From the NCBI RefSeq assembly GCF_030063445.1, contig NZ_JASITD010000015.1:1-64000 (forward strand): a stretch of DNA of 64,000 bases, written 5' to 3'. The position numbers and the translations under genes were made by a program. Below the pieces are notes generated by a model, which saw nothing but the letters and a program-made list of their open reading frames with translations, was not told the origin of the DNA and did no database searches. This document shows, one piece after another, positions 54,763 to 64,000 of the stretch (position 1 is its first letter; every line of letters begins with the position of its first letter). Origin of the DNA: Hymenobacter sp. H14-R3. Lineage in GTDB: Bacteria; Bacteroidota; Bacteroidia; Cytophagales; Hymenobacteraceae.

Positions 54763-56037
54763 TCACACCAACAGGCTCAGGAAATCCTGCTTGCCATTGA
54801 GGTATTCAAACCCAAAGCCTTCCTCCACCATGCGGGCTTTGATGCCCTCCACATCGTGCGGGTTGCTGACTTCGACGCCGATGAATACGGGGCCTTTCTC
54901 CTTGTTATTCTTCTTAATGTACTGAAATTGAATGATATCAGTACCCTCGGCCAGCACGTTGTTCACGAAGCGCCGCAGCGCGCCGGGCGCTTGGTTGAAC
55001 GTTACCATGAAGTAGTGTTTGAGGCCCTGGTGGCGCTGGGCGCGCTCCTTAATGTCCTCCATGCGGGTGATGTCGTTGTTGGAGCCGCTGACGATGCACA
55101 CCACCGTTTTGCCCTTGATTTGGTCGGCGTAGGCGTGCAGCGCCGAGATGGCGAGCGTGCCGGCGGGCTCCAGCACCATGCCTTCCTCGTTGTACATCTT
55201 CAGCAGGTCTTCGCACACCTGGCCCTCGGGCACGAGGTGCACCTCATCGAGCAGGGCCTGGCAAATCTCAAACGTGAGTTCGCCAGGGCACTTTACGGCC
55301 GCGCCGTCCACAAAGGTGTCGAGGCTGGCCAGCGCCTGCCGCCGCCCGGCCCGGATGGCGTCGTGCATGCTGGGTGCGCCCAGTGGCTGCACGCCAATGA
55401 GTTTGGTTTCGGGGCTCAATTGCCGAAACACGCTCGATAAGCCCGAGGCCAGCCCGCCGCCGCCGATGGGCATGAAGCAAAAGTCAATCGGCTTGTGGTG
55501 AGCCGCTTTCAGAATTTCCAGCCCCACCGTAGCTTGCCCTTCCACAATGGCCAAGTCGTCGAACGGGTGCACGAAGGTGCTGCCGCGCGCGTCGCAAAAC
55601 GCCTGCGCCGCCTGGTAGCAGTCGTCGAAGGTGCGGCCCGTGAGGTGCACCGTTACCATGTCTTTGCCGAAGAGGCGCACCTTGTCCACCTTCTGGGCGG
55701 GCGTCTGGGCTGGCACGAAAATGTCGCCCTGCAAGCCCAATAGCTGGCAGGCGTAGGCCACGCCCTGGGCGTGGTTGCCGGCGCTGGCGCACACGATTTG
55801 GCGGCCCGGCACGGTAATCGGCAGCATCGAAATCTTGTTGTAAGCCCCCCGGATTTTGTAAGAGCGCACCACCTGCAAGTCCTCCCGCTTGAGCAGAATA
55901 GTCGCGTCGTAGGTGCGCGAGAGTCCCAGGTTCAGCATAAGGGGCGTCTTGGTAATCACGCCTTTGAGGCGGCGCGCGGCGGCCTCCACGTTTTTGAGGG
56001 TGACGGCGGTGGCCGCCGGGGCGAGCAGGTCGGGCAT
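54763..56037 (-). CDS. ilvA: Threonine ammonia-lyase
   Basis: A 424-residue PLP enzyme that deaminates threonine to 2-oxobutanoate, the first step of isoleucine synthesis. The PLP Lys lies in LQVVRSYKIRGAYNKI near 54-69, the phosphate loop in MPIGGGGLASGLSSVF near 192, and CASAGNHAQGVAYAC near 83-97. The C-terminal 90 residues form one ACT-like regulatory domain (KHYFMVTFNQAPGALRRFV, then GPVFIGVEVSNPHDVEGI), the biosynthetic type sensitive to isoleucine, with one ACT instead of the two of E. coli IlvA. Last gene of the leu-ilv block. Confidence 0.94.
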   Translation of the reverse strand: MPDLLAPAATAVTLKNVEAAARRLKGVITKTPLMLNLGLSRTYDATILLKREDLQVVRSYKIRGAYNKISMLPITVPGRQIVCASAGNHAQGVAYACQLLGLQGDIFVPAQTPAQKVDKVRLFGKDMVTVHLTGRTFDDCYQAAQAFCDARGSTFVHPFDDLAIVEGQATVGLEILKAAHHKPIDFCFMPIGGGGLASGLSSVFRQLSPETKLIGVQPLGAPSMHDAIRAGRRQALASLDTFVDGAAVKCPGELTFEICQALLDEVHLVPEGQVCEDLLKMYNEEGMVLEPAGTLAISALHAYADQIKGKTVVCIVSGSNNDITRMEDIKERAQRHQGLKHYFMVTFNQAPGALRRFVNNVLAEGTDIIQFQYIKKNNKEKGPVFIGVEVSNPHDVEGIKARMVEEGFGFEYLNGKQDFLSLLV

Positions 56038-56080
56038 GGGGGTAGGGAACTGGTTCTAAGTCAGTACAGAAAAAAAGAAC

Positions 56081-56172
56081 GTCATGCTGAGCTTGTCGAA
56101 GCATCTCTACCGCTTCGTTGGATTGGTAACCCTGGCGGCGTGGTAGAGATGCTTCGACAGGCTCAGCATGAC
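56081..56172. repeat. Intergenic palindrome, family C
   Basis: Arms of 31 bases, 56081-56111 (GTCATGCTGAGCTTGTCGAA, then GCATCTCTACC) and 56142-56172, with one mismatch. It lies 29 bases after the ilvC stop. The GTCATGCTGAGC...GAAGCATCTC sequence is a dispersed repeat known from many unrelated bacterial genomes. Confidence 0.88.
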
Positions 56173-56200
56173 GGCCTGTTATAATCGGTGATAGAAGGAT

Positions 56201-57262
56201 TTACGCCTCCACACTGACACTGCTGCGCGAGCGCAGCTCGCGCACTTGCGCGCCGGTAGCCCACAGCTCCGATTCGCGCACTTCCTTCAGCTCCGCCTCC
56301 AGCTCCTGGCGGTAGTTGGGGGTCGAGCCGCGCTCGATGGTGCGGCGGGCTTCCTCGCCGCTGGCTACGCTGTCATACAGCTCGTTGAGTACGGGCAGGG
56401 TAGCGTCGCGGAACTTGCCTTTCCAGTCGAGGGCGCCGCGCTGGGCGGTTACCGAGCAGTTGGCAAACATCCAGTCCATGCCGTTTTCGCCCACCAGCGG
56501 CACGAGGCTTTGGGTGAGTTCCTCCACGGTTTCGTTAAAGGCCTCGGAGGGCGAGTGGCCGCGCTGGCGCAGCACCTGGTACTGGGCTTCGATGATGCCG
56601 GCCAGGGCGCCCATCAGCACGCCGCGCTCGCCGGTGAGGTCGGAGTATACTTCCTTTTTGAAGTCGGTTTCGAACAAGTAGCCCGAGCCCACGCCGATGC
56701 CCATGGCAATGGCCTTCTCCCAAGCCTTACCCGTCGCATCCTGGAACACCGCGAACGACGAGTTCAACCCGCCGCCGGCCACAAACAAGCGGCGCAGGCT
56801 GGTGCCGCTGCCTTTAGGCGCCACCAGAATCACGTCGATATCCTTGGCCGGGATGATGTGGGTCTGCTCATTAAACGTGATGCCGAAGCCGTGCGAAAAG
56901 TACAGCGTTTTGCCCGGCGTGAGGTACTTCTCAAGCGTGGGCCACAGGGCAATCTGCCCCGCATCGCTCAGCAGGTTGCAGATGATGGTGCCCTTGTCGG
57001 CGGCTTCCTCAATCGAAAACAGCGACTCGCCCGGCACCCAGCCATCCTTGAGGGCGCGCTCCCACGAAGGCGTGCCTTCGCGCTGACCCACAATGACATG
57101 GAAGCCGTTGTCGCGCATGTTCAGCGCCTGGCCGGGCCCCTGCACGCCGTAGCCGATTATGGCAATGGTGTCGTCTTTCAGGAAGTCGAGGGCCTTGGCG
57201 AGCGGAAATTCGTCGCGGGTAATCACGGTTTCGGGTACGCCGCCGAAGTTGATAGTAGCCAT
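56201..57262 (-). CDS. ilvC: Ketol-acid reductoisomerase
   Basis: A 353-residue class I ketol-acid reductoisomerase, which isomerises and reduces acetolactate and acetohydroxybutyrate with NAD(P)H and Mg2+. The nucleotide motif IIGYGVQGPGQALNMRDNG is near residues 35-53. KGSGTSLRRLF near 151 and the metal-site Asp and Glu in LTGERGVLMGALAGIIEAQY near 210 follow. The C-terminal knotted domain is complete, with VEELTQSLVPLVGENGMDWM near 253. The cofactor loop GQREGTPSWERA lacks the usual KDGS spacing, so the NADH/NADPH preference is open. Confidence 0.95.
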   Translation of the reverse strand: MATINFGGVPETVITRDEFPLAKALDFLKDDTIAIIGYGVQGPGQALNMRDNGFHVIVGQREGTPSWERALKDGWVPGESLFSIEEAADKGTIICNLLSDAGQIALWPTLEKYLTPGKTLYFSHGFGITFNEQTHIIPAKDIDVILVAPKGSGTSLRRLFVAGGGLNSSFAVFQDATGKAWEKAIAMGIGVGSGYLFETDFKKEVYSDLTGERGVLMGALAGIIEAQYQVLRQRGHSPSEAFNETVEELTQSLVPLVGENGMDWMFANCSVTAQRGALDWKGKFRDATLPVLNELYDSVASGEEARRTIERGSTPNYRQELEAELKEVRESELWATGAQVRELRSRSSVSVEA

Positions 57263-57273
57263 GGGGGTAGGGA

Positions 57274-57360
57274 TGTAGCGCGGACTTTCAGTCCGCGAGT
57301 TGGTTGAGAAAGGTGTCGTATTAAAATCGTCTGGTTCGCGGACTGAAAGTCCGCGCTACA
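57274..57360. repeat. Intergenic palindrome, family A, holding the ilvN stop codon
   Basis: Perfect 25-base arms, 57274-57298 (TGTAGCGCGGACTTTCAGTC and CGCGA) and 57336-57360. The ilvN stop TAG (57358-57356) lies inside the arm, as in the element at 11053. Each arm also folds on itself through CGGACT/AGTCCG. Confidence 0.88.
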
Positions 57361-57946
57361 TGGTAAAGACCTGCTCGCGGTCGTTCAAAAACTCGTTCTC
57401 GGCCACTTCCTCGCCCGGCTCGCGGCGCTCGAACTCCTTGAGCTTGTGGTGAAAGCCATCACTGGCCTTGATAATGGCAATACGCGCCGAGCGCACAAAC
57501 TCAATCAGCCCGTAGGGTTGCAAAGCCTTAATCAAATTGTCGGTTTCCTCGCGGTGGCCGGTGGTTTCAAACACCGTGTAGTCCTTGCGAATGACCACGG
57601 CGCGGGCCCCGTTTTCGCGCAGCAGGCGCTCTACGAGCACTTTCTCGGCAATGATGTCGGTGGGCACTTTATACAGCGCCATCTCCTGCCAAATCACGTC
57701 GGCGTTGGTGTTGAAGTACACTTTGAGTACCTCCACCTGCTTCTCGATTTGCTTGGCGAGCTTCTCCACCACCTCCTCCGTTTCCACAATCACGATGTTG
57801 AAGCGGTGGATGCCCTCAATCTCGGAAGGCGACACGTTGAGGCTCTCGATATTGATTTTGCGGCGCGAAAAGATGATGGCAATGCGGTTGAGCAGGCCCA
57901 CCTGGTTTTCGGTGTACGCGGTGATGTTGTATTCCTGGCGGTCCAT
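57356..57946 (-). CDS. ilvN: Acetolactate synthase small (regulatory) subunit
   Basis: A 196-residue regulatory subunit of acetohydroxyacid synthase. The N-terminal ACT domain (YTENQVGLLNRIAIIFSRRK at 10-29, then INIESLNVSPSEIEGIHRF) binds valine and gives feedback inhibition. A second ACT-like C-terminal domain runs from about 82 (LYKVPTDIIAEKVLVERLLR). The length lies between E. coli IlvN (96) and long IlvH forms plus a tail. The stop codon is part of a family A palindrome. It follows ilvB after 79 bases that hold another palindrome. Confidence 0.94.
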   Translation of the reverse strand: MDRQEYNITAYTENQVGLLNRIAIIFSRRKINIESLNVSPSEIEGIHRFNIVIVETEEVVEKLAKQIEKQVEVLKVYFNTNADVIWQEMALYKVPTDIIAEKVLVERLLRENGARAVVIRKDYTVFETTGHREETDNLIKALQPYGLIEFVRSARIAIIKASDGFHHKLKEFERREPGEEVAENEFLNDREQVFTM

Positions 57947-57950
57947 AGCG

Positions 57951-58023
57951 TGTGCGGTAAGCTTTAGCTTGCCGTAAGTAATTAATTTGAAAGGAGTTAC
58001 GGCAAGCTAAAGCTTACCGCACA
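57951..58023. repeat. Intergenic palindrome between ilvB and ilvN
   Basis: Perfect 27-base arms, 57951-57977 (TGTGCGGTAAGCTTTAGCTT and GCCGTAA) and 57997-58023. It begins 2 bases after the ilvB stop and ends 5 bases before the ilvN start, so it fills the whole gap. It shares GTAAGCTTTA with the element at 23208. Confidence 0.88.
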
Positions 58024-58025
58024 GC

Positions 58026-59771
58026 CTAGCGCAGCCGGATTTCCGCCACGCTGCACCCCTGCGGCACCATCGGGAAGATGTTGTTCTCCTTCGTCACCAT
58101 CACTTCCAGTAAAAACGACCCTGGGTGCGCCAGCATCCGCTCCAGCGCCGGGCGCAGGTCGGCGCGGGCATCTACGCGCTGGCCGGCGATGCGGTAGCCG
58201 GCCGCTACGGCCACAAAATCAGGGCTTTGGATATCCACGAACGAGTAGCGGCGCTGGTGAAATAGCTCCTGCCACTGCCGCACCATGCCCAAAAACTGGT
58301 TGTTGAGGATGATGATTTTCACGTCCACGCCCGTCTGCATAATGGTGCCCATCTCCTGAATGGTCATCTGAAAACCACCGTCGCCAATGACGGCCACTAC
58401 CGGCCGGTGCGGGGCCCCAAACTTGGCCCCAATGGCTGCCGGCAGCGCGAAGCCCATGGTGCCCAGGCCGCCGCTCGTGACGTGGCTGCGCGACTGGTTT
58501 TGCCGCGCGTAGCGGCAGGCCACCATCTGGTGCTGCCCCACATCGGACACGATAACGGCCTCACCCCCAGTTATTTCATTGAGCTGCTGCATCACCTCGC
58601 CCATCGTCAATTCTTCCGAGGATGGAAACAATTCCTCCCGAATCACGGCGTCCACTTCCTGCGCCGCGTAGCCGTTGAAGCGGGCCAGCCAGGCGGCGTG
58701 CTCCTTGCGCTCGACCAGCGCCGTGAGCAGGGGCAGGGTTTCCTTGCAATCGCCCCAGACAGGCACGGCGGTGGGCACGTTTTTGCCGATTTCGGTAGGG
58801 TCGATGTCGAGGTGGACGATTTGGGCCTGCCTGGCGTACTTATCGAGGCGGCCGGTTACGCGGTCGTCGAAGCGCATGCCAATGGCAATCAGCACGTCGC
58901 ACTCGTTGGTGAGCACGTTGGGGCCGTAATTGCCGTGCATGCCCAGCATCCCCACGTTGAGCGGGTGGCCAGTGGCCAGCACGCCCACGCCCAGAATGGT
59001 CCAGGCCGCCGGGATACCCGATTTCTCCACAAATTCCTGGAATTCGCGCTCGGCCCGGCCCAGCACCACGCCCTGGCCCCAGAGGATAAACGGCTGTTTG
59101 GCGCTGTTAATGAGCGCCGCCGCCTGCTCAATGTACTCGTTGCGCACCACCGGCGCGGGCCGGTAGCTGCGGATGTGCGTGCACGGCGCGTAGGCCGGCG
59201 CGTCGAACAGCTGCATCTGCGCGTTCTTGGTGATGTCGACCAGCACGGGGCCCGGGCGGCCGCTACGCGCAATGTAGAAGGCCCTGGCCAGCGCCTCCGG
59301 TATTTCTTCGGCCCTGGTTACCTGGTAGTTCCACTTCGTAACGGGCGTCGTGATGTTGATGATGTCCGTTTCCTGAAACGCATCGGTGCCCAGCAAATGC
59401 GCGAACACCTGCCCCGTAATGCAAACCAGCGGCGTGCTGTCAATGAGCGCATCGGCCAGCCCGGTTACGAGGTTGGTCGCGCCCGGCCCGCTGGTGGCCA
59501 GCGCCACTCCCACCCGGCCCGAACTGCGCGCATAGCCCTGCGCCGCGTGAATGCCGCCCTGCTCGTGGCGCACCAGCACGTGGTTGAGCTGCTCCTTGAA
59601 GTCGTAGAGCGCATCGTAAATCGGGATGATGGCCCCGCCGGGGTAGCCAAAAATCGTGTCCACGCCCTCGGCCACCAGGGCTTGCAGCGTGGCTACCGCG
59701 CCCGTGATGGGCGTGGTGGCGAGGGCGGGGGCCGCGCTAGCGGCGGGCGGGGCTAAGGTTTGCGGCGACAT
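58026..59771 (-). CDS. ilvB: Acetolactate synthase large (catalytic) subunit
   Basis: A 581-residue thiamine-diphosphate enzyme that joins pyruvate with pyruvate or 2-oxobutanoate. The start [27 protein letters not shown] leads to the catalytic Glu in [18 protein letters not shown] near 64-81. The FAD region follows, and the ThDP/Mg motif is [19 protein letters not shown] near 449 to [11 protein letters not shown]. Length and motifs are normal. Its ATG lies 35 bases inside the 3' end of ilvD, so the two are translationally coupled. Confidence 0.96.
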
Positions 59772-61455
59772 AATCTTCTTCTAATAAGTCAGTTATGCAC
59801 CCGTGGCTGGCGTCGCTCACGGTTCGGATGTACTTGAGCAACACGCCCTGCGTGGCGGGCAGCGGCGGGCGCTGCCAGGTGGCGCGGCGGTCGGTCAGCT
59901 CCTCGTCGCTGAGCTGCACGTCGATGGTGTTGGCGCTGGCATCCAGGATAATCCAGTCGCCGTTCTGCACCAGGGCCAGGCCGCCGCCGTCGAACGCCTC
60001 GGGGCAGATGTGGCCGATAACGAAGCCGTGCGTGCCGCCCGAAAAGCGGCCGTCGGTTATCAGGGCCACTTTATCGCCCAGCCCGGCACCCATAATGGCC
60101 GAGGTGGGCTTGAGCATTTCGGGCATGCCCGGCCCGCCTTTCGGCCCCACGTAGCGAATCACGACTACCTGCCCGGCCTCGATTTTGTGGTCGATAATGC
60201 CCTGGTTCAGTTCTTCTTCCGAGTTGAATACTATCGCCGGGCCCTCAAACCGCAGCCCTTCCTTGCCGCTGATTTTGGCCACGCTGCCCCTGGTGGCGAG
60301 GTTGCCGTACAGCATCTGAATGTGCCCGTCGGCCTTGATGGGGTTACTAAGCGGGCGCAGCAAATCCTGCTCAGGGCCAAGGGGTTGCACGTCGGCCAGG
60401 TTCTCGGCCAGCGTGCGGCCGGTCACGGTCAGGAGGTCGCCGTTGAGCATGCCTAGGTCGAGCAACGTGCGCTGCACGGCGGGCACGCCGCCGATTTTCG
60501 ACAAATCTTCCATGAGGTAGCGGCCGCTGGGCTTGAGGTCGGCCAGCACCGGCGTGCGGTTGCTCACGGCCTGGAAGTCCTCCATCGTCAGCTTCACGCC
60601 GGCCGCGTGGGCAATGGCGATGAGGTGCAGCACGGCATTGGTGGAGCCACCGAGCACGGTTATCATCACCATGGCGTTCTCAAACGCCTCACGGGTAAGG
60701 ATATCGCGCGGCTTAAGGTCGAGCTCCAGCAAATTGCGCAGGTAGCTGCCGGCATCGAGGCACTCCTGCACCTTGGCGGCGCTTTCGGCGGGTAGCGACG
60801 ACGAGGCGGGCACGCTCATGCCCAGCGTTTCGATGGCCGCGGCCATGGTATTGGCCGTGTACATGCCGCCGCACGCGCCGGGGCCAGGGCAGGCGTTGTG
60901 GATAATGCCCTGGTAGTCTTCCTCCGAAATATCGCCGTTAACTTTCTTACCGTAAGCCTCAAAGCATGACACAATGTTGAGCTGCTGCCCCTTAAACTCG
61001 CCGCCCTTGATGGTGCCGCCATACACCATCAGCGAGGGCCGGTTGAGCCGCGCCATGGCGATGAGCGCGCCCGGCATGTTCTTGTCGCAGCCCACCACCG
61101 TGGCAATGGCGTCGTAGTAGTGCGCGCCCGCCATTGCCTCAATCGAGTCGGCGATTATCTCCCTCGACACCAGTGAGTAGCGCATGCCCGCGTTGCCGTT
61201 GGTGATGCCGTCGCTCACGCCGATGGTGTTGAAGCGCAGCCCCACTAAGCCCTGGGCGGCCACGCCGCGCTTCACCTCGTCGGCCAGGCCGTTGAGGTGC
61301 ATGTTGCAGGTGTTGCCCTCGAAGCCCGTGGAGCAGATGCCCACGAACGGCTTGCGCAAATCCGCATCCGACAGGCCCGCGCCGATGAGCATGGCCTGCG
61401 AGGCGGGCAAGCTGTCGTCCTGGGTGTAGATGCGGCTGAATTTATTGAGTATCAT
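59737..61455 (-). CDS. ilvD: Dihydroxy-acid dehydratase
   Basis: A 572-residue Fe-S dehydratase that turns 2,3-dihydroxy acids into the 2-keto acids of valine and isoleucine (and leucine through valine). Cluster Cys motifs are [14 protein letters not shown] near 41-54, [12 protein letters not shown] near 117 and [20 protein letters not shown] near 187-206. The C-terminal [25 protein letters not shown] stretch is complete. It is the first ilv gene after the attenuator; the terminator lies about 35 bases before its ATG. Its last 35 bases overlap ilvB. Confidence 0.96.
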
Positions 61456-61490
61456 GGAGTTAATTCGGCAAAGAAATTCAGTTTGGCCCT

Positions 61491-61527
61491 AAAAAAACCT
61501 TCCTGAGCCGCGGGCCAGGAAGGTTTT
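61491..61527 (-). terminator. Attenuator terminator before ilvD
   Basis: On the minus strand, AAAACCTTCCTG (61527-61516) pairs perfectly with CAGGAAGGTTTT (61505-61494) around a 10-base GC-rich loop, followed by more T (seven in all with the stem). It lies between the leader peptide and ilvD, with no gene end nearby to serve, so it is a premature terminator. Confidence 0.85.
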
Positions 61528-61548
61528 CTTTGGGGTAAGAAGTACCTG

Positions 61549-61602
61549 CTAGCCCGCGAGGGTAGGAATAATGACCACGGAAATGACGGGTAGCAGGGGC
61601 AT
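61549..61602 (-). CDS. ilv leader peptide (17 aa)
   Basis: A 17-residue open frame, MPLLPVISVVIIPTLAG, from ATG at 61602 to TAG at 61549. Nine of the 17 residues are Leu (3), Val (3) or Ile (3), including the run VVII, and one is Thr. Those are the amino acids made by, or feeding, the downstream ilvD-B-N-C-A genes. It ends 22 bases before a perfect terminator that precedes ilvD. Ribosome stalling at these codons when a charged branched-chain tRNA is short would be the sensor. It is too short for gene finders. The composition and position are seen; the function is inferred. Confidence 0.8.
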   Translation of the reverse strand: MPLLPVISVVIIPTLAG

Positions 61603-61610
61603 GGCGGGCA

Positions 61611-61675
61611 GTAGCGCGGACTTTTAGTCCGCGAGTGGTGACGCTTGATATTCGCGGACTAAAAGTCCGCGCTAC
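61611..61675. repeat. Intergenic palindrome, family A
   Basis: Perfect 24-base arms, 61611-61634 (GTAGCGCGGACTTTTAGTCC and GCGA) and 61652-61675. It starts 2 bases after the leuB stop and ends 8 bases before the ATG of the ilv leader peptide. Nearly identical to 57274-57360. Confidence 0.88.
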
Positions 61676-61677
61676 AC

Positions 61678-62799
61678 TTAAATAATCGTGCTCACGCCCA
61701 CCGCAATGTTATGCGCGTTCCACTGCTGCTCGTTCGAGTCGGTAATCCAGAACGCCACGTAGCTACCTACCTGCTCAGTGGTATAGGGCGCGGTAGGGTT
61801 CAGCTCCGGCGTCAAGATGTTGTTAGTCAACGCTTCATCCACGGCTTCGCGCACCAAGTCGGCTTCGGCCGGGAGGCCCAGGTGCTCAAGCAGCATCGCG
61901 GCCGATAGAATGGCGGCTAGCGGATTAGCAATGCCCTTGCCCTTGGCCTGCGGGTAGGAGCCGTGAATGGGCTCGAACACCGCTACCGCCGCGCCCACCG
62001 AGGCCGAAGGCAGCAGGCCCATCGAGCCGGCAATAACCGAGGCTTCGTCCGAAATAATGTCGCCGAACATGTTCTCGGTGAGTATCACGTCGAACTGCCG
62101 GGGGTTGGTGATAATCTGCATCGCGGCATTGTCCACGAACAGGTAATCGACCGTCACCTCCGGGTATTGGTGGGCGATTTCGCGTACTACTTCGCGCCAC
62201 AAGCGCGAGGTTTCCAATACGTTAGCTTTATCAACCAGCGTGAGGTGCTGGCGGCGGCCGGTGGCCGACTGAAACGCCAGGTGCGCGATGCGCTCAATCT
62301 CGGGGCGCGAGTAGGTGCAGTTATCGTAGGCCGCGCCGTCGGCCGTACGGCCCTTCTCGCCGAAGTAGATGCCGCCCGTCAGCTCCCGAAAAATCACCAG
62401 GTCGGTGCCCTCGATGCGGTCCGATTTCAGGGGCGAATGCTTCAGCAGCGCGTTGTAGGCCGTGACTGGCCGAATATTGGCAAACAAGCCCAGTTCCCTG
62501 CGCATGCGCAGCAGGCCCTGCTCGGGGCGCACTTTGGCGGTGGGGTCGTTGTCGTACTTGGGGTCGCCGATGGCCCCGAACAGCACCGCGTCGGCGGCGC
62601 GGCAGGCGGCCAGGGTTTCGTCGGGCAGCGGGTTGCCGGTGGCGTCGATGGCGCAGGCGCCCACGAGGTGCGAGGTAAACTCAAAGCGGTGGCCGAAGCG
62701 CTCGGCTACGGCGTCGAGCACTTTCACGGCCTGCCGACAGACTTCCGGCCCGATGCCATCGCCGGGCAGTAAAGCTATTTTCTTGGTTACCAGGTCCAT
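61678..62799 (-). CDS. leuB: 3-isopropylmalate dehydrogenase
   Basis: A 373-residue NAD-dependent decarboxylating dehydrogenase of leucine synthesis. Family features are [20 protein letters not shown] at 8-27, the substrate Arg residues in [17 protein letters not shown] near 95-111, the catalytic Tyr in [15 protein letters not shown] near 155, the Lys in [15 protein letters not shown] near 187, and the Asp residues of the metal site in [18 protein letters not shown] near 243. It is fused to no other domain. It overlaps leuD by 13 bases upstream and is followed by a palindrome and the ilv attenuator. Confidence 0.95.
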
Positions 62800-63383
62800 G
62801 CGCGTTGTTTTTCAAAGGCCTCAATGGCCGATTTTTGATTTACTAAAAAGTCAATATCGTCGTAGCCGTTAATCAGGCACTCCTTTTTGTAGCCGTCGAT
62901 GGCGAAGCTGAACGTTTCGCTCCAGGCCGGCACGGCCAGCGTCTGGGAAGGCAAATCGACGGCTAATTCCAACTGCGGGTCGGCTTCGATGGCGGCCAGC
63001 AGGCGGGCCAGCACCTCGTCGCTCACTTGCAGGGGTAACAGGCCGGTATTCAGCGCGTTGCCCCGAAAAATATCGGCGAAGTAGCTGGAGATAACCGCCC
63101 GAAAACCAGCGTCGTACAGCGCCCAGGCGGCGTGCTCGCGGCTGCTGCCGCACCCAAAGTTTTTACCCGCCACCAGCACGGAGCCGGTGTAGCGCGGGTC
63201 ATTAAGCACGAACTCGGGCTTGGGCGAGCCGTCGGCGTTGTAGCGCCAGTCGCAAAACAGGTTTTCGCCGAAGCCTTCGCGCGTGGTCGCCTTCAGAAAC
63301 CGGGCCGGGATAATCTGGTCGGTATCAATGTTTTCCAGCGGCAGCGGGCGGCCGGTGGTGCGCAGGGTTTGAAATTTCTCCAT
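62787..63383 (-). CDS. leuD: 3-isopropylmalate dehydratase small subunit
   Basis: A 198-residue LeuD, the swivelling small subunit of isopropylmalate isomerase. [19 protein letters not shown] at 14-32 and [21 protein letters not shown] near 69-89 are the family signatures, the latter with the substrate-loop Ser-Ser-Arg. Its 3' end overlaps leuB by 13 bases, which points to coupled translation. Upstream a long GC-rich palindrome separates it from leuC, its large-subunit partner. Confidence 0.95.
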
Positions 63384-63387
63384 TGGT

Positions 63388-63536
63388 GCAGCCCCACCCC
63401 CCGGCCCCCTCCCCTGCGGGGGAGGGGGAGCCGGACGATAACAAGGGGTGGTACTTATGAATGAGTCACTTATCGAGATAGTTGGCTGACGACTGGCTCC
63501 CCTCCCCCGCAGGGGAGGGGCTGGGGGTGGGGCTGC
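63388..63536. repeat. Long GC-rich palindrome between leuC and leuD
   Basis: Arms 63388-63432 and 63495-63536 of 42-45 bases, with a few slips. The right arm reads GGCTCCCCTCCCCCGCAGGG and on through GGGTGGGGCTGC. The 62-base loop is AT-richer. The right arm ends at the first base of the leuC stop codon. A C-run/G-run palindrome of this kind is a further family (D) of dispersed repeat. Confidence 0.85.
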
Positions 63537-64000
63537 TAATTCAAATACTGCGTAATGTCCACGATGCGGCCCTGCACGGCCGTGATGGCCGCCACCAGCG
63601 GCGAGGCCAGCAGCGTGCGCGAGCCGGGCCCCTGCCGCCCCTCAAAGTTGCGGTTGGAGGTAGCCACGCAATACGCGCCGGCCGGAATCTTGTCCTCGTT
63701 CATGGCGAGGCAAGCGCTGCAACCGGGCTCGCGTAGCTCGAAGCCGGCGGCGGCAAAAATCTTGTCGATGCCCTCGGCAATAGCCTGCTGCTCAACCTGT
63801 TTGGAGCCGGGCACGATGATGGCTTCTACGTGCCCGGCCTTCTGCTTGCCTTGCACGTAGGCGGCCACGGCGCGCAGGTCTTCGATGCGCGAGTTGGTGC
63901 AGCTGCCGATGAATACGTAGTCAATCTGCTTGCCGAGCAGCGACTCGCCGCGCTCGAAACCCATGTATTTCAGCGACTTATCGAAGCTCTCGGCCTCGTT
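63536..64000 (-). CDS. leuC: 3-isopropylmalate dehydratase large subunit, C-terminal part
   Basis: The last 154 codons of LeuC, the Fe-S subunit of isopropylmalate isomerase; the gene runs off the window end. The frame is open up to base 64000 ([15 protein letters not shown]). The first cluster Cys is in [19 protein letters not shown], and the pair CSACLAMN gives the other two ligands. [20 protein letters not shown]-like and the final VDITQYLN complete the family end. With leuD and leuB it forms the leucine half of the operon; leuA, if linked, lies upstream outside the window. Confidence 0.95.

Follow-up and report, generated by a model that had tools for sequence, protein, structure and literature searches.

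A probable ribosome-mediated attenuator between leuB and ilvD in the leu-ilv gene cluster of Hymenobacter sp. H14-R3

To our knowledge, amino-acid regulation in Bacteroidota has been little studied. Some attenuators in Bacteroidetes/Chlorobi were reportedly predicted by Vitreschak et al. in 2004, and initiation of translation in the phylum often occurs without Shine-Dalgarno sites. Strong clues to leader-peptide attenuation upstream of amino-acid biosynthesis operons are given by a transcriptome map of Flavobacterium psychrophilum (PMC9723704), which belongs to the same phylum as the organism studied here but to a different family; the main text of that paper, in which 'ilv' occurs 0 times, names no ilv operon and no layout of the kind described below. 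Leader-like sORFs are reported in Bacteroides (PMC7366714), and the Bacteroid-trp RNA is listed in PMC2864571. Among the matches listed in a literature search, no title or abstract opening described an ilv attenuator of Bacteroidota, a weak negative with most subscription journals outside its scope.

In Hymenobacter sp. H14-R3, the region between leuB and ilvD carries a short ORF rich in Leu, Ile and Val codons, an intrinsic terminator placed before the structural genes, and an antiterminator that excludes this terminator and could be masked by a ribosome, which are the features of ribosome-mediated attenuators as a class. Judged from its parts and their mutual exclusion, its conservation, codon bias and geometry, all of which can be followed in the sequences, this element is very probably a ribosome-mediated transcription attenuator gating ilvD-ilvB-ilvN-ilvC-ilvA.

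The leuB-ilvD gap and its putative switch

In the window, by which the whole stretch of 64,000 nucleotides is meant, the minus strand carries leuC (cut by the window end), leuD and leuB and, after a gap of 222 nt, ilvD, ilvB, ilvN, ilvC and ilvA; these presumptive names were assigned by us from the protein sequences. Past the window, the contig continues with the remainder of leuC and then leuA, and no comparable leader was seen by eye upstream of leuA in this contig. We infer one transcript spanning the leu and ilv genes, with the leu promoter feeding the attenuator. When the regions upstream of 65 leaders were searched for TAnnTTTG, which we take to be the Bacteroidota promoter motif, 3 matches only were obtained.

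A dispersed palindromic repeat makes up most of the gap between leuB and the leader (Table 1). This repeat, TAGCGCGGACTTTTAGTCCGCG, has 45 half-repeat matches in the genome when up to 2 mismatches are allowed, and is also present at 57276-57358 of the window. In several other Hymenobacter, related palindromes were seen by eye about 10 nt 5' of the leader ATG.

Table 1. Features of the leuB-ilvD region, in the order of transcription
Feature	Position in the window	Strand	Basis or remark
leuB, last gene 5' of the putative attenuator	61678..62799	-	ORF; presumptive name
Dispersed palindromic repeat, leuB-leader gap	61611..61675	-	outside the switch itself
Leader peptide ORF, MPLLPVISVVIIPTLAG plus stop codon	61549..61602	-	readable leader in 64/66 Hymenobacter elements
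Leader 5' segment able to pair with segment 2 (protector-like 1:2)	61587..61597	-	fold; z -4.7 here
Presumed regulatory codons Val-Ile-Ser-Val-Val-Ile-Ile	61567..61587	-	Ile/Val density and GTC/ATT bias, 64 leaders and 23 relatives
Antiterminator 5' strand (segment 2), includes the leader stop codon	61545..61558	-	pairing peak at the stop, three sequence groups
Small spacer hairpin UUCUU...AAGAA, stop-terminator interval	61526..61541	-	weak evidence
Antiterminator 3' strand (segment 3), covering the terminator loop and the upper end of its 5' arm	61509..61519	-	pairing, duplex energies
Intrinsic terminator hairpin and T-tract (segments 3:4)	61491..61527	-	fold; conserved pairs
ilvD, first gene 3' of the putative attenuator	59737..61455	-	35 nt from T-tract to start codon
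ilvB, ilvN, ilvC, ilvA, presumed controlled downstream genes	54763..59771	-	ORFs; presumptive names

The original prediction had placed in this gap a 17-codon leader with nine Leu/Val/Ile codons, a perfect 12-bp terminator with a U-run 22 bases past the leader stop, and an 11-bp alternative pairing with the stop codon at its bulge, and all three were recovered on the minus strand. Leu, Ile or Val is encoded by 9 of the 17 codons, the stop codon is at 61551-61549, and the presumed regulatory codons are codons 6-12 of the ORF, that is, -12 to -6 relative to the stop. The 12-bp terminator stem (AAAACCTTCCTG/CAGGAAGGTTTT, 61527 to 61494) is followed by a tract of 7 T (61497-61491) and begins 21 nt after the stop codon, or 22 nt when the stem is taken without its outermost A-U pair. 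The alternative pairing is exact, joining CGCGGGC-UAG-CAGG (61558-61545) to CCUG-GCCCGCG (61519-61509), and the three nucleotides of the stop codon are bulged out.

The RNA of 112 nt folds with -44.8 kcal/mol (z = -6.6), and none of 200 dinucleotide shuffles was as good. The spacer between stop and terminator has fold energies of -0.4 to -8.3 kcal/mol in 65 sequences and of -1.9 in the window. A terminator scan with a loop limit of 8 did not return the hairpin at 61491-61527, presumably because its 10-nt loop exceeds that limit.

As metabolite riboswitches and T-boxes use an expression platform of the same terminator/antiterminator type, ilvD could also be controlled by one of these, the ORF being a by-product. 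Against this, an Rfam scan of positions 55000-64000 gave no family at its gathering score, no T-box or riboswitch match fell on the element up to E 5, and conservation is found in the ORF and in the pairing strands, in an RNA of 112 nt that has little space left for an aptamer. Such control is exceedingly improbable, and attenuation by a translating ribosome is the reading followed below.

Distribution in Hymenobacteraceae and in distant Bacteroidota

The genus was sampled with 120 genomes, 80 of which had an IlvD match; after genome G043 (34% match only) and weak second copies were dropped, 79 loci were left. In the other 40 genomes there was no IlvD match at E 0.001, which suggests that part of Hymenobacter has lost branched-chain amino acid synthesis. 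The search profile was made from the leuB-ilvD gaps of 15 sequences (16 chosen, one fragment empty). The element was found upstream of ilvD, or of the gene preceding ilvD, at 66 of the 79 loci, always on the ilv strand and with a weakest E of 0.0085. Two further loci had the terminator half alone (E 8.5e-10 and 3.7e-8), with weak scores of the covariance model (E 8.1 and 1.8), and at 11 nothing recognisable as the element was present in the 4-7 kb of upstream DNA covered. When these 11 genomes were searched in full with the covariance model, the best E was 0.17. It therefore appears that the attenuator can be lost.

In many genomes the element lies about 1 kb 5' of ilvD. It then precedes either a gene for an aminotransferase-like protein, which we take to be ilvE, or a gene that we named methyltransferase-like from its sequence. 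Standing before whichever gene opens the ilv block, the element thus marks the start of this block. At five loci (L018, L231, L233, L269 and L287), the methyltransferase-like gene is located between the attenuator and ilvD and would share its control.

The covariance model, made from 65 sequences, was run on 200 genomes of the family (Hymenobacteraceae) and matched 109 of them at E <= 1, many of the weak matches being false. Forty matches were fetched, chosen mostly as being outside the genus or weak. Two other genera contributed 24 of them (16 and 8), located before an ilvE-like gene or ilvD, and another 15, one of them with E 8.7e-4, had none of the searched ilv or leu genes adjoining. Weak matches to the model were not accepted as attenuators, as they were often other terminators. 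The last fetched match (L158) was an element after leuB in a Hymenobacter genome (G010) with no IlvD match; judged by eye, it looks like a decayed attenuator, as if it were a leftover of a lost ilv block.

In a set of 80 named loci, which overlaps with the sets above, 47 had a match on the ilv strand at E <= 0.01, with Hymenobacter, Rufibacter, Sabulibacter and Cesiribacter among them, and in all 47 the element preceded either ilvD or a gene resembling ilvE or a methyltransferase gene. At the four Pontibacter loci of the set, the 2.5 kb examined contained no match. H. polaris shares the order leuB, element, ilvD with the window. In 27 of the 47, leuB was found 58-435 nt upstream. The position in the middle of the operon, after leuB, had been singled out as unusual; it is real, yet other genomes share it, and it recurs in Hymenobacter and Rufibacter.

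With leuB directly upstream, both here and in those 27 loci, and with a hairpin this strong, the structure might be a plain terminator at the end of the leu operon, the ilv genes having their own promoter and the short ORF being accidental. However, just 35 nt lie between the T-tract and ilvD, and the next gene starts 116-187 nt from the first base of the element in 46 of the 47 named loci (542 nt in the other), even without leuB nearby. The ORF content, the codon bias and the stop-centred pairing moreover recur in relatives, which makes an end-of-operon terminator most unlikely and favours the attenuator.

Beyond the family, 40 distant Bacteroidota ilvD loci were hand-picked for spread, 20 from each of two lists. 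The strict scan demanded an ATG ORF of 12-32 codons, rich in Leu, Ile and Val (fraction 0.45) and shortly 5' of a terminator. It gave 10 forward matches in the 40 loci, and ten shuffles of the complete set gave 0; with the fraction set at 0.4 or 0.5, the forward matches were 12 and 7. An ORF-terminator pair of any composition was present on the forward strand at 14 of the 40 loci, 10 of the 14 being Leu/Ile/Val-rich, and this triple had the top count among 1140 amino-acid triples, the runner-up reaching 7. The strict scan of the reverse strand gave 0 of 40, a weak control, as an ORF-terminator pair of any composition was likewise found there at 0 of 40.

A looser list held 24 candidate ORFs at 19 distant loci, of which 18 ORFs at 16 loci were retained, picked by eye before the pairing was examined. 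Excluded were the two ORFs of L215, the ORFs of L222 and L226, and the second ORF at each of L195 and L216. At L195, L205 and L212, two candidate leaders, each with a terminator, are arranged in series before an aminotransferase-like gene and ilvD, and could possibly be tandem attenuators.

Leader codons, alternative pairing and the position of the ribosome

Sixty-four Hymenobacter leaders were analysed, one element being cut (L019) and another having no frame (L067). When several starts were possible, the one nearest 18 codons was taken, so that the uniform length of the leaders is partly a matter of choice. Leu, Ile and Val made up 50% of residues on average. Compared with ilvD of the same species, the leaders (codons up to -6) showed a raised use of GTC for Val (74% vs 5%), ATT for Ile (91% vs 50%) and CTA for Leu (31% vs 4%). 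Non-branched codons were likewise raised, with Thr ACT at 41% vs 4%, Pro CCT at 30% vs 8% and Ser TCT at 22% vs 4%; therefore, part of the codon bias may be general composition. In the leaders of 23 relatives, GTC reached 72% and ATT 81%, and outside Hymenobacter hardly anything of the peptide is kept apart from its content of Ile and Val. The bias towards Leu, Val and Ile, whose lack among relatives the original prediction had named as a refuting outcome, is conserved.

In the tRNAs of the H14-R3 genome, read at 40 of 41 places, tRNA-Val was found once with anticodon GAC and once with UAC, and tRNA-Leu with UAG, CAG, GAG, UAA and CAA; no tRNA-Ile was among those read. As both Val tRNAs are present, GTC is probably decoded by another tRNA than the main Val codon, GTG. 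Particular synonymous codons are reported to be favoured in attenuator leaders (PMC1183508).

Ile and Val are nearly missing at codons -1 to -5 of the 64 Hymenobacter leaders and common from -6 upstream, with Leu present at -3 and -4; in the 23 relatives, counted without L151, they are frequent from codon -7 upstream. The footprint of a ribosome reaches about 12-13 nt ahead of its A site. Consequently, a ribosome stalled at an Ile or Val codon at least 6 codons before the stop is expected to leave the GGGC core of the antiterminator free, and a ribosome at the stop to cover it.

In a sliding-window profile, complementarity to the terminator arm was greatest at the stop codon in each of the three groups of sequences, with the maximum at 0 to +3 nt. 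The stop codon was part of the pairing strand in 63 of 64 Hymenobacter, 21 of 21 relatives and 12 of 18 distant leaders. The 2:3 duplex is possible in all 65 aligned sequences, with energies from -12.2 to -24.8 kcal/mol, and its core pairs are kept in 62 to 65 of them. From this alignment, RNAalifold returned only a four-pair GGGC/GCCC core; named pairs and duplex energies were used in its place, because the terminator and the antiterminator are in competition and their registers vary from clade to clade. The leaders' own pairing beat 5000 of 5000 permutations in each group, that is, Hymenobacter (64), relatives (21) and distant ORFs (18), the first two results being less independent because the members of those groups are closely related. 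For the distant ORFs, which were chosen without regard to pairing, the own pairing had -16.2 kcal/mol against -11.5 in permutations. When strands were exchanged between the two other genera, the loss was small in one direction, from -22.1 for the own strands to -21.4 for the swapped ones. Three relatives with atypical leaders (L151, L173 and L188) were excluded from the terminator, swap and pairing tests, leaving 21 of 24.

Covariation of the stems among Hymenobacter had been proposed as a check, and the outcome was divided. Column pairing within the genus was 75.8% vs 72.6% in shuffles (none of 500 as high), the covariation score was 0.162 vs 0.122 (0 of 500; a slide of +2 gave 0.175), and a third covariation measure exceeded all shuffles but one of 500. 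Shuffles were not exceeded in the number of pairs with both bases changed or in the number of pair types (301 and 179 of 500). Covariation is thus modest overall, because the sequences are too alike.

Folding with a ribosome mask at the stop gave the terminator in 62 of 64 leaders and the antiterminator in none of the 64. At an intermediate length, with only segment 3 emerged, the antiterminator formed in 51 of 64 for a ribosome placed at -8 and in 46 of 64 for one at -6; without a ribosome it formed in 49 of 64. At full length and equilibrium, the terminator still won in 42 of 64 with the ribosome at -8, and the antiterminator in 13. Therefore, the order of folding matters, and the model requires that the antiterminator forms first and lasts.

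Before segment 3 emerges, the core of segment 2 is paired upstream in 64 of 64 leaders. The protector fold 1:2 has a z of -4.7 in the window, with a median of -0.04 over the 64 species and 11 of 64 below -1. A protector hairpin was hence not kept as a general feature, its stability being no better than that of shuffles in most of the 64 species. Such a hairpin is a feature of trp-type attenuators that is not required of ribosome-mediated attenuators. In the broader proposal made below, in which no protector exceeds chance, readthrough might be the default for an untranslated leader.

In the proposed mechanism, RNA polymerase arriving from the leu genes would transcribe the leader, and a ribosome would start on the 17-codon ORF. 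With sufficient Val, Ile and Leu, the ribosome would reach the stop codon and cover the strand centred on it; the antiterminator being blocked, the terminator hairpin would fold and transcription would end 5' of ilvD. If charged tRNA for Val, Ile (or, upstream, Leu) ran short, the ribosome would stall at least 6 codons before the stop, leaving the stop-codon strand free to pair with the emerging top of the terminator 5' arm, and the polymerase would continue. Termination in cells and its relief by starvation are thus what we infer from the sequences.

Leader peptides may have other roles. For peTrpL, roles in trans are reported (PMC7298713), and in the Streptomyces ilvB case regulation is reported as unaffected after candidate regulatory codons were altered (PMC1262725). 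By analogy, the leader could act on how the ilvD message is translated or degraded, or as a peptide in trans, with the hairpin being secondary. However, a terminator was present in 85 of 85 sequences examined (64 Hymenobacter and 21 relatives), the pairing is tied to the terminator arm, and a function in trans is at odds with a peptide that outside Hymenobacter largely keeps its Ile/Val content only. We regard these alternatives as very unlikely and favour attenuation at the hairpin.

Significance and comparison with known leaders

The enteric type of attenuation envisaged at the outset is supported at the sequence level, with the bias conserved and mutually exclusive terminators and antiterminators recurring in other genera. 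A broader proposal, which is possible and which we put forward tentatively, is that Bacteroidota have widespread and largely undescribed ilv attenuators with a stop-centred antiterminator, no protector beyond chance, a split between leu and ilv in Hymenobacter and Rufibacter, and some attenuators stacked in pairs. If this were true, one transcript in the latter two genera would be gated in its ilv half but not in its leu half, and the internal placement would explain two expression levels from one leu-ilv operon. The stop-centred layout would give a simple search rule for more attenuators in Bacteroidota, and the element a concrete, testable regulator of branched-chain amino acid synthesis in the phylum.

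In the H14-R3 genome, trpE (L353, contig C12) is also preceded by a leader, MPFSATVSQSWWHSTFPKG plus stop codon, with tandem Trp codons and a terminator. Its pairing is best at +3 to +6 from the stop, in a layout similar to that of the ilv element, although its codons would sense Trp and those of the ilv element branched-chain amino acids; both would be Bacteroidota cis-regulatory leaders, as is Bacteroid-trp (RF01692). The trp leader scored 34 bits with Rfam Trp_leader, below the cut-off of 41, and had no match to RF01692 up to E 0.5. No leader with a terminator was found within the 1.5 kb flanks of hisG in this genome, which also carries a SAM riboswitch (RF00162, 76.7 bits; L354:852-970) 5' of a homoserine dehydrogenase gene.

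Seven E. coli leaders were put through the same pairing profile. The thrL leader had a plateau from -9 to 0 relative to the stop, ivbL a peak at -3 and pheL one at +6; leuL and ilvL peaked about 30 nt 5' of the stop, hisL far downstream, and trpL was broad. With three of these peaks within 9 nt of the stop, the working principle is already known.

In the genes served and the amino acids sensed, the element resembles E. coli ilvL (ilvGMEDA) and leuL, which also have 21 nt between stop and stem, but their best pairing lies upstream of the stop. The stretch VISVVVIIIPP of ilvL resembles VISVVIIP of the Hymenobacter leader. Homology of the peptides was rejected, as the codons of this stretch differ, and the likeness thus looks convergent.

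In its layout, the element is like E. coli thrL and ivbL (ilvBN), in which a leader with regulatory codons has its stop within, or next to, the region that pairs best with the terminator arm, and the distance from stop to stem is 21 nt in thrL, 24 nt in ivbL and 21 nt here. Thr_leader (RF00506) was also the best cis-regulatory match in Rfam, although its 20 bits (E 4.4, cut-off 55) indicate no shared family. In contrast to thrL and ivbL, which stand at the head of their operons, the Hymenobacter element stands between leuB and ilvD. The mechanism itself is textbook, and what is unusual is the internal position in Hymenobacter and Rufibacter and the recurrence of the stop-centred layout in the phylum.
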